Part shown: positions 44,385 through 46,938 of the stretch, piece after piece
Layout: each line of letters starts with the position of its first letter
How positions within the stretch are numbered: position 1 is the first letter of the stretch
Assembly: GCA_018650445.1 (NCBI GenBank)
Contig: JABIFX010000259.1
Span: 1 to 46,938 of the forward strand
Origin: Fidelibacterota bacterium
Lineage (GTDB): Bacteria > Fidelibacterota > UBA8477 > JABMPR01
Direction: 5' to 3'
DNA length: 46,938 nt
Notes under the pieces: model-generated
What the model was told of the DNA's origin: nothing
Database searches by the model: none
What the model saw: the letters and a program-made list of their open reading frames with translations, nothing else
Translations under genes and position numbers: made by a program

Positions 44385-46083
44385 AGGCAAACGCGTATTA
44401 ATATTTGGTGGTTGGGGACTGGTTGGTCAAGCCATTGCTAAACAATTACTTGAAGAAAAACCATCTGAATTAATCGTAACATCTTTACGGGAGAATGAGG
44501 CTGCAGAAATACAGACCATTCTCGAAAATCATCCTCTCAATCAAGGGACAAAAATAATTTCGGTTCATGGCGACCTTTTTGTACGAAATGAATTATCCTT
44601 TTTATCCAAGGCAGATATCTATTCCAAACCTGAGCAGGTTGAATTGATGATCCATGATATTTACGATGATCTTGGTCCTGATATCATCAATAACTCCAAA
44701 TTGTATCAGATCATGGATGCTCATAAACCACAAATACTCATTGACTGTATCAATACAGCCACAGCTTTTGCTTACCAGAATGTTTATCAGATAGTTGCTG
44801 AGCTGCGAGCTCAAATAAATGACATTCGCAAGGGCAGATCTGGTGATGATAAGCTGATTGAGACTGTAGAGAGAATGATTTCCACCCTCTATATCCCACA
44901 ATTAATTCGTCACGTACAAATACTCATCGAAAGTATGCGTCAGGCTGATACGAAACTTTACTTGAAGGTGGGTACCAGCGGAACAGGTGGAATGGGATTT
45001 AATATTCCTTACACACATTCTGAAGATAAACCTTCTAAAATGCTCATGAGCAAGTCCTCGCTAGCTGGAGCCCATACTATGTTGCTGTGGTTATTAGGCC
45101 GCACGCCGCATGCACCCATCGTCAAAGAAATAAAACCTACTGCAGCCATAGCCTGGAAAAAAATTGGCTACGGAAAGGTTGTTAAGCGTGGAAGTCACAT
45201 TCCACTCTTCGATTCAGTACCCAGTGAAGCAACTGTATTAGGCAATACTCTGAGTAAGTCTCCAGAATCGACATGGGATCGGCTCGGGGACGATTGTCTG
45301 GAATCCGTCTATATCGATGCTGGAGAAAATGGCTATTTCTCTGCTGGGGAATTCTCAGTATTGACTGGAGAAGGACAAATGGAATTTGTCACTCCAGAGG
45401 AAATTGCTGACTTGACGCTTCTAGAGATAAGAGGTGGCAACACGGGTAACGATATCATATCCAGTCTTGATTCATCCGTCTTGACTCCTTCATATCGAGC
45501 TGGTCTGATTCGCAAGGATGCCCTGGAAAAGATGGAGGCCCTTGAGGAAAAGACCGGGAAAGATAGTGTGGCTTTCGAGTTGTTGGGACCACCCCGATTA
45601 ACAAAACTGCTGTATGAAGTGTATATCTTAAAGCAACTCAAAGGCAATATCTCGGCTGTTTTGAGTGCGGATCCTGCCGAACTGGCAGCTCAGATGGAAG
45701 CTGAAATTCTTGGTAATAAAGAGTTGCGATCCACAATCCTCTCTGTTGGCACACCGATTTTGTTGAAAGATGGTCTCACATTTTTACGTGGTCCTGATAT
45801 ATCAGTCCCCAATTTTGAGGGCCGAACAGTGCTGGATATTACTCCTGAAAATATTGAGAAGTGGACCAGCGGTGGTTGGCTGGACTTACGCAAAACGAAT
45901 GTCATCAAATGGCAGGAAAGACTTGCAGCATTGGGTGATGATATGGAGAAGGAAACCAAGCAGGATTATTCTTCATATTACTTCCGGAACAGACGTTTTC
46001 TCGGAGCAACCCAACGTATGGATATTGGTATCATTGTAAACTGGGTTCTAGAGTACGAAGATAAAGGGTATCGAATTAAATAG
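44374..46083 (+). CDS. Large Rossmann-fold protein of unknown function (NAD(P)-dependent epimerase/SDR-like)
   Basis: Cytoplasmic 569-residue protein. It begins as an NAD(P)-binding fold: RVLIFGGWGLVGQAIAKQLL (7-26) with the glycine-rich turn GGWGLVG, then ELIVTSLRE and ILIDCINTATAFAYQNV. After about residue 190 it carries a conserved-looking stretch, LKVGTSGTGGMGFNIPYTHS, then KSSLAGAHTMLLWLLGRTP and IKPTAAIAWKKIGYGKV. The C-terminal 350 residues have no domain I can name. It is much longer than a normal SDR (about 250) or extended SDR (about 350). Overlap with the pseudouridine synthase gene suggests co-expression. The reaction is unknown. Confidence 0.65.
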   Translation: MDIKGKRVLIFGGWGLVGQAIAKQLLEEKPSELIVTSLRENEAAEIQTILENHPLNQGTKIISVHGDLFVRNELSFLSKADIYSKPEQVELMIHDIYDDLGPDIINNSKLYQIMDAHKPQILIDCINTATAFAYQNVYQIVAELRAQINDIRKGRSGDDKLIETVERMISTLYIPQLIRHVQILIESMRQADTKLYLKVGTSGTGGMGFNIPYTHSEDKPSKMLMSKSSLAGAHTMLLWLLGRTPHAPIVKEIKPTAAIAWKKIGYGKVVKRGSHIPLFDSVPSEATVLGNTLSKSPESTWDRLGDDCLESVYIDAGENGYFSAGEFSVLTGEGQMEFVTPEEIADLTLLEIRGGNTGNDIISSLDSSVLTPSYRAGLIRKDALEKMEALEEKTGKDSVAFELLGPPRLTKLLYEVYILKQLKGNISAVLSADPAELAAQMEAEILGNKELRSTILSVGTPILLKDGLTFLRGPDISVPNFEGRTVLDITPENIEKWTSGGWLDLRKTNVIKWQERLAALGDDMEKETKQDYSSYYFRNRRFLGATQRMDIGIIVNWVLEYEDKGYRIK

Positions 46084-46166
46084 TTCTTCAGTCATTCGCT
46101 TATAAAATTCAATTATTTAGGTCAGGTATTCTGGGTTGTGTTGGCATCAATGGTCGTCTATATTGC

Positions 46167-46215
46167 GCCGCTTTGAAACGAGTATATAAAATAATATTGA
46201 TTAAAGCGGCTTTTT
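46167..46215 (+). promoter_or_regulatory. Inverted repeat just upstream of cmk (terminator or leader hairpin)
   Basis: GCCGCTTT (46167-46174) and AAAGCGGC (46203-46210) are a perfect 8-bp inverted repeat, extendable by G-T and A-T pairs, enclosing an AT-rich 28-nt loop and followed by five T. It ends 4 bp before the cmk start codon, leaving no normal ribosome binding site. It could terminate the upstream operon, or form a leader structure that limits cmk translation. Confidence 0.5.
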
Positions 46216-46218
46216 GAA

Positions 46219-46938
46219 ATGATTATTGCTATTGATGGCCCTGCGGCATCCGGCAAGAGCTCAACGGCTCACGGTGTTGCTCAAAAATTGAATTTTCGAC
46301 ACATCGATACCGGTGCAATGTACCGGGCTATTACCTTAAAGATAATCAATGAAAACATGGACTTATCAAAGCTTGATGACCTTCAGGCATTATTAGATGG
46401 TCTTGATCTACAAGTCACATTCAATGAGGACATCCAGGAAATCTACCTGGATGGGGAACTCCTGGGTGACGAAATTCGATCACCTCAAGTTACTAATCTT
46501 GTGGCTGATGTTAGCGCCATCGCCGGGGTCAGAAATCACTTGCTGGGGATTCAACGTGAAGTAGCTCAATCCCATGATGTTGTACTTGAAGGACGCGATA
46601 TTGGGACGGTTGTTTTTCCAGATGCTGATATCAAGATTTACATGGTGGCTGAAGCTCGAATCCGAGCCCTACGCAGGCAGAAAGATTTTGCCCTTCAGGG
46701 TATTGAAAAGTCCATAGAAGAATTAGAAAAAGAGATTCTCGAAAGAGATGAACACAATGCCAAACGCAAATTGGCACCAATGAAAGCCGCAAAAGATGCA
46801 ATTACTCTCGATACGACAGAATTAAGTATCGATGATCAGATAGAATTTATTGTCTCCAGGGTGGAGACAGCGAAGTCAAATGGAGGAAACTTAATGACCA
46901 AGAAACAAGACATGGATGCAAAAGCTGAAGAAGTAAAA
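46219..46938 (+). CDS. cmk: Cytidylate kinase, frame open to the window end (possible Cmk-S1 fusion)
   Basis: Phosphorylates CMP and dCMP. The first 225 codons form a complete Cmk: IAIDGPAASGKSSTAHGVA (P-loop, residues 3-21), HIDTGAMYRAITLKI, LEGRDIGTVVFPDADIKIYM, and an arginine-rich lid (RIRALRRQKDF). Usual length is about 225-230 residues. However, no stop codon occurs: the frame continues through GGAGG and an ATG (46894) to the last base. cmk is commonly followed by rpsA, so either the two are fused here or they share one frame and S1 is made from its own start. The 3' end lies outside the window. Confidence 0.92.
   Translation, partial: MIIAIDGPAASGKSSTAHGVAQKLNFRHIDTGAMYRAITLKIINENMDLSKLDDLQALLDGLDLQVTFNEDIQEIYLDGELLGDEIRSPQVTNLVADVSAIAGVRNHLLGIQREVAQSHDVVLEGRDIGTVVFPDADIKIYMVAEARIRALRRQKDFALQGIEKSIEELEKEILERDEHNAKRKLAPMKAAKDAITLDTTELSIDDQIEFIVSRVETAKSNGGNLMTKKQDMDAKAEEVK
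46894..46938 (+). CDS. rpsA: Probable start of ribosomal protein S1 (partial, 15 codons)
   Basis: ATG 46894 has GGAGG (46882-46886) at 7 bp and begins MTKKQDMDAKAEEVK, a charged start like that of S1 in many bacteria. It is in the same frame as cmk with no stop between. Fifteen residues are too few to confirm S1; the assignment rests on the widespread cmk-rpsA gene order. Confidence 0.45.
   Translation, partial: MTKKQDMDAKAEEVK

Follow-up and report, generated by a model that had tools for sequence, protein, structure and literature searches.

The fused frame at the end of the contig

The window, by which we mean the whole 46,938-nucleotide stretch of DNA that was analysed, is contig C255 of a genome of 273 contigs that is 86.75% complete. 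At its right-hand end lies cmk and, as the first-pass annotation had claimed, positions 46219-46938 form a run of 240 codons without a stop, in which GGAGG at 46882-46886 and an ATG at 46894 (codon 226) follow a full-length Cmk in the same frame. Past 46938 the frame can be followed by way of contig C89, whose first 128 bases match the last 128 bases of the window exactly; in a search of the window's own assembly, this stretch occurred at two places only. There the frame enters a complete six-domain S1, with the six S1 domain matches in frame with cmk, which excludes the alternative that rpsA lies in another frame. The resulting Cmk-S1 ORF runs for 1054 codons to its stop across the C255/C89 overlap. 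The features of the locus are as follows.

46219..46893, + strand: cmk (225 codons), the (d)CMP kinase portion of the fused ORF (PF02224, TIGR00017)
46819..46926, + strand: block A, codons 201-236, with synonymous sites nearly frozen (excess codon identity)
46850..46870, + strand: predicted hairpin P0 (TTGTCTCCA / TGGAGACAG), ending 11 bases upstream of the SD (folds, covariation, RNAalifold)
46882..46887, + strand: GGAGGA, the putative SD of the internal S1 start, in cmk codons 222-223 (GGA conservation, 16S tail)
46894..46938, + strand: the opening 15 codons of rpsA (S1), continuing the cmk frame (contig overlap, S1 domains on C89)
46914..46927, + strand: predicted 5' arms of stems P1 (GGATGC) and P2 (AGCTG) (P2 covariation)
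Contig C89, locus L009 from base 129: remainder of rpsA, to codon 1054 of the fused ORF
Contig C89, L009:208-221: predicted 3' arms of P1 and P2
Contig C89, L009:234-263: block B, 30 bases, containing a predicted hairpin (codon identity, alignment)

The assembly break directly precedes a 24-base tandem repeat of 3.9 copies (L009:114-206). This repeat belongs to the S1 N-terminal coding region, its length differs among relatives, and its units can fold as small hairpins inside the P2 loop. The assembly is a metagenomic draft, and both the contig end and the tandem repeat are close by, so an assembly or sequencing error that deleted a stop codon has to be considered. However, the same open frame recurs in 14 more genomes of the genus and in other families, which excludes a missing base as the source of the frame, and the error reading is refuted with next to no probability left to it.

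The Cmk part is full length (PF02224 positions 1-210 of 211, E 3e-66; TIGR00017 match of 223 bits against a cut-off of 136), and the domain is complete, with P-loop and GRD motif. The genome holds one Cmk match and one multi-domain S1 gene; two further frames with S1 domains, one of 705 and one of 521 codons, carry a single domain match each. A Pfam search of the fused protein of genome G012 gave six S1 stretches, and an IspH domain is absent from the six Pfam families listed for it. The IspH-S1 model NF000907 scores this protein below threshold (491, where the cut-off is 624), and the best-matching part aligns profile positions 277-599 of 671 with residues 417-730. In an AlphaFold model of the same fusion (mean pLDDT 71, pTM 0.38), Cmk is confident over about residues 1-221, residues 222-397 fall under pLDDT 50 and the S1 domains lie mostly at 75-91, so that Cmk and S1 could function while joined through a linker of about 175 residues that is predicted to be disordered. 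The 240-residue protein of the window, modelled alone, has a mean pLDDT of 42.3.

Fusion and separation among relatives

Among the matches listed, the nearest named records are MAGs of Candidatus Neomarinimicrobiota, a lineage of uncultured marine bacteria, with up to 95% identity over 240 residues. A cmk match was found in 16 of the 18 same-genus relatives searched (the search found none in G005 and G013), giving 17 genomes once the window's own is added. In 15 of these 17 cmk is fused in frame with an S1 match, one of them (G008) being counted as fused with its S1 cut by a contig end. Because the frame is kept across the genus in this way, a chance open frame is excluded. In G016 the frame is open through the junction to the contig end (318 codons), and G017 is the sole genus member seen with a stop, a TGA immediately 5' of the S1 ATG; its junction (L134) carries a 3-base insertion after the SD and keeps the downstream RNA element described below. 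The fusion is also present in the one genome of the sister genus and in all three genomes of the second family of the order (f2), whose Cmk parts are 52-56% identical to that of the window.

Beyond the order, in-frame fusion was confirmed on DNA in genera g5, g7, g22, g28, g35 and g61. In two further g61 genomes (G190 and G191), read over the S1 part only, the frames that hold S1 are 873 codons long, as is the fused frame of G189. Many other families of the phylum have separate cmk and rpsA genes; in this survey 220 of 245 genomes had a match, and fused or separate status was taken from among the matches listed. The comparison with relatives that the first-pass annotation proposed thus shows the fusion in 15 of the 17 genomes of the genus, and a stop between the genes in G017 and separate genes in these families. 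Since separate relatives exist, the fusion is dispensable there, and the open frame in the window stands regardless. In genus g17 the stop adjoins the start as GGA GGA AAA TGA ATG in four of the five genomes read. The codon preceding the ATG in fused genomes is TTA, TGG, AGA, TTC, TTG or AAA, several of which lie one change from a stop. We also observed that, in a Bacilli metagenome genome (isolate RGIG5470; L112), cmk runs in frame into S1-like matches over 685 codons.

On a Cmk plus S1 protein tree of 58 chosen rows (32 fused and 26 separate, the latter including G017), at least seven changes between the fused and separate states are required, or six when four long rows are left out; the exact count is uncertain, given the weakness of some inner branches and the joining of some long ones. 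A single group of all fused rows plus G017 was rejected (p-AU 5e-74, from two trees under a quick search). The rows combine the fused cases that were found with a selection of separate ones, and their proportions are not frequencies. G033 and G078, both cut by contig ends, were left out of the tree, and G016 is in the codon and RNA alignments and was left out of the tree and the parsimony count. As G017 is nested in a fused genus, its stop was most simply regained. The ancestral state may have been a pair of abutting genes in which the rpsA SD lay within cmk, whose stop adjoined the rpsA ATG (GGAGGA-AAA-TGA-ATG), an arrangement that persists in g17, and the cmk stop would have been lost through substitution more than once. 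As far as we have searched, the fusion in Neomarinimicrobiota and its apparent recurrence there are new.

The internal start and the RNA around it

Nucleotide-level constraint was measured as synonymous codon identity minus the amino-acid expectation, in 15-codon windows of the 17-genome codon alignment. This excess peaks at codons 212-227 (0.415) and codons 270-284 (0.417), against a maximum of 0.295 in 10,000 column permutations and a best window of 0.239 outside blocks A and B. In a test on 16 genomes, at fourfold sites with the first two bases fixed, 9 of 11 sites in the two blocks are unchanged on the genus tree, compared with 4 of the 207 outside them (Fisher p 1.5e-11); on average, a fourfold site outside the blocks changes 6.0 times in cmk and 4.5 times in S1. 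The permutation test is the fairer of the two, because the blocks were chosen on the same alignment.

GGAGGA, the six-base spacer AACTTA and the ATG are nearly unchanged on the genus tree. Of the two Gly codons that carry the SD, one is GGA in 17/17 and the other in 16/17 genus genomes, whereas in the remainder of the 17 genes, taken together, 207 of 875 Gly codons are GGA; codon use thus rules out that the SD was retained for Gly-Gly coding. Met226, the S1 start, is invariant in all 22 aligned fused proteins (seven genera, several families) and is the sole invariant column between I211 and E359; G024, which is fused and lies outside this alignment, has GTG near the S1 start position. The SD is weaker in g7 (AAGGAGTCTTTC-ATG) and likewise in some other fused families. 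An ordinary gene-junction constraint is unsupported by a control junction between two neighbouring genes, at which the maximum windows were 0.104 for the end of ybbR (13 rows) and 0.128 for the start of tsaD (14 rows, most of them truncated where a locus ends). The gene 5' of cmk peaks at 0.107 (15 rows), and the second gene 5' of cmk reaches 0.221 away from its ends (11 rows, four of them under 10 codons). Thus tested, the SD and the start codon are conserved beyond coding needs, and use of the internal ATG as a functional initiation site is strongly supported by these comparisons.

The 16S tail CCTCCTT (anti-SD) is present in all three 16S genes found in seven genomes searched; a 16S gene was not found in the window's own assembly. 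In 206 kb made up of the window and three relatives (L204-L211), an SD 5-mer precedes the first ATG in 10 of 128 long ORFs, a sample in which some genes are homologous, with 2.8% expected by chance, and no SD-like word was found before the cmk ATG. Given a strong internal SD, the scarcity of SDs and an SD-less cmk start, the internal S1 start looks favoured over that of cmk. The scarcity of SDs despite the anti-SD in the 16S tail recalls Bacteroidia. An internal sigma-70 promoter was rejected, as positions 46000-46938 gave no match on the + strand and four on the - strand, against 2.3 expected for both strands, in a scan that may not suit this phylum. Just 5' of the cmk ATG, at 46167-46215, an inverted repeat (GCCGCTTT...AAAGCGGC) is followed by TTTTT; it is terminator- or attenuator-like with a long loop, and only some members of the genus preserve its pairing. 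A conserved word at 46158-46176, CTATATTGCGCCGCTTT, is recognisable in the sister genus and altered in f2, and by eye it may represent either the last codons of a short hydrophobic ORF (...VVYIAPL) or a DNA or RNA site.

Around the internal start lies what we predict to be a conserved RNA structure with covariation at the rpsA start, as judged on an alignment of 21 genomes (the 17 of the genus, G019 and G020-G022); one of five measures lay at shuffle level. In this alignment 93.1% of cells are paired and 10 of 29 pairs show both-sided changes, and in neither respect did any of 500 shuffles score as high; further pair types number 25 against 23.7 in shuffles, a value that 106 of the 500 reach. 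The paired percentage is biased upward because these same sequences had been folded to derive the structure, and the both-sided changes in P2 are better evidence. These involve three P2 pairs (A-U/G-C/U-A, C-G/U-A and U-A/C-G), with 5 to 7 sequences each, and covariation lies mainly in this stem, within the genus. Outside the genus most of the P2 alignment is gapped, and the f2 folds show a shifted stem. The distance between the P2 arms varies, and the 24-base repeats found there are able to self-fold. P0 is a genus-level feature; in the four genomes from other groups it is largely disrupted, and its few both-sided changes there may be due to chance. RNAalifold, unprompted, gave P0, P1 and the block B hairpin without recovering P2, and added a three-pair helix of the SD with its spacer.

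The P1-P2 stem begins at +21 from the rpsA ATG, and block B begins about 70-150 nt into rpsA. Block B is near-identical in f1 and f2, despite the low identity of their Cmk parts, and occurs once in the genome even when up to 3 mismatches are allowed, which rules out a dispersed repeat. Rfam 15 gave no match up to E 1 in 46000-46938; over L009:1-700 it gave four matches far below gathering scores, none of them over the element (L009:39-270). An RNA model of the element (R1) scores at least 102 bits in its 21 source genomes, where a match is built in, and no more than 28.8 bits elsewhere in 60 relatives and the window's own genome, under filters that lose weak matches. Weak matches (E 1e-4 to 0.02) fall at cmk-rpsA junctions of other families, e.g. 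L153-L155, L185 and L188, and the alignments of L154, L155 and L185 rest mainly on SD-ATG rather than on P1/P2 or block B. With no clear R1 copy in other fused families, the element is ruled out as a general companion of fusion. Moreover, G017 has the element plus a stop, and therefore the element is independent of the fusion and the fusion is not indispensable. The conserved nested start together with its putative RNA element is, as far as searched, new.

Two probable products from one frame

Cmk-S1 fusion itself is an already known kind of protein. In Escherichia coli, cmk and rpsA form a gene pair in the same order, with rpsA directly after cmk, and the separate cmk-rpsA pairs of Neomarinimicrobiota likewise keep the order of the fused gene but have a stop codon. 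In a table of PMC3373638, Treponema pallidum TP0279 appears as a 'bifunctional cytidylate kinase/ribosomal protein S1' of 863 aa; like the gene of the window it places Cmk and S1 in a single annotated ORF, but it belongs to another phylum and is considered here by annotation alone. The first-pass remark that other enzymes are fused to S1 agrees with the 'Rosetta stone' IspH-RPS1 proteins, which the consulted passages of PMC4746011 describe together with a CMP-IspH-RPS1 in Candidatus Arthromitus. According to those passages, the authors found no further ispH or rps1 genes in the organisms concerned and considered that the roles of the fusions remain to be determined (PMC4746011). In these proteins the enzyme is also N-terminal to S1, but the enzyme is a different one, the tested protein has four S1 repeats, and a nested start is not mentioned in the same passages. 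In open-licence PubMed Central text no paper was found for cmk, rpsA and Marinimicrobia together, and in that literature no nested S1 start was found by title or abstract opening. A parallel for the start signal may lie in Bacteroidia, in which ribosomal protein genes such as the autoregulated rpsU have a strong SD (extract of PMC9976891). As at the internal S1 start, a strong SD at a ribosomal protein gene stands there against genome-wide rarity; the parallel differs in that the gene encodes bS21 rather than S1 and, in that extract, the mechanism works via bS21-less ribosomes.

The first-pass annotation had left a choice between a fusion, a separate S1 from internal initiation, or both, and both is the best supported answer: the sequence evidence for the internal start is strong, and a Cmk-S1 product, which follows from the frame, is to be expected because the open frame is common to the genus, the sister genus and the second family. 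We put at about two in three the probability that this is a nested two-start gene, with free S1 made from the internal site and Cmk-S1 from the cmk start. Under this model, 30S subunits would bind the internal GGAGGA to give free S1, probably the main product, and ribosomes starting at the SD-less cmk ATG would read through to give Cmk-S1, in which Cmk carries S1 behind the long disordered linker. Structured RNA (P0 upstream of the ATG, P1/P2 and block B downstream) would tune the internal start. The first-pass annotation further proposed, as a hypothesis, that such an arrangement would tie nucleotide supply to the ribosome.

It is also conceivable, though improbable, that Cmk-S1 is the sole product, the SD and ATG being left over from a time when the genes were separate. 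The frame runs uninterrupted in two families of the order with such diverged Cmk parts, which speaks for this, as does the annotation of TP0279 as one protein. However, an unused SD and ATG would be expected to decay and both are conserved, which disfavours the relic: GGAGGA, AACTTA and ATG are nearly unchanged where other cmk fourfold sites change about six times each on the genus tree, and Met226 does not vary. Somewhat less improbable, but still unlikely in our view, is that the locus works effectively as two genes, S1 having its own start, the stop having been lost neutrally and any read-through product being rare, degraded or cut. The contrast between the strong internal SD and the SD-less cmk start fits this, and so do the stop in G017, the repeated changes between fusion and separation, which are expected when stop loss is harmless, and the predicted disordered linker, which could be cleaved. 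On the other hand, Cmk must come via the fused frame because only one Cmk was found, and the frame is open in 15 of 17 genus genomes and in the four sister-genus and sister-family genomes sampled.

Within the nested two-start model, the RNA element is most likely an operator through which S1 would control its own synthesis, S1 being its putative ligand. Because S1 targets are placed 5' to the SD with affinity for U- or AU-rich sites (extract of PMC10931766), block A is A/U-rich 5' of P0, and rpsA autoregulation is mentioned in PMC3858243, autoregulation appears to be the likeliest role, which we hold with moderate confidence only. Also compatible with two starts, and not far short of an even chance, is that the element acts as a ribosome-holding enhancer, as a site for another ligand or as a processing site of the cmk/rpsA message. 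P1, at +21, lies near the leading edge of an initiating ribosome, in keeping with such roles; the present data separate none of them from autoregulation, and autogenous control is common among ribosomal protein genes. A more far-reaching scheme, which we regard as speculative and rather doubtful, is that an intracoding cis-regulatory RNA responds to S1 and thereby adjusts how much free S1 is made relative to Cmk-S1; the S1 supply would then govern the tethering of the cell's one CMP kinase to ribosomes, and stop loss would recur in this phylum because the tether is useful.

The kept S1 start makes the role of an S1-enzyme fusion testable, as two products would come from one frame and a defined RNA element should control their ratio. 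Finally, fused, separate and apparently re-separated states occur side by side in this phylum, which thereby offers a natural experiment on how gene fusions begin.
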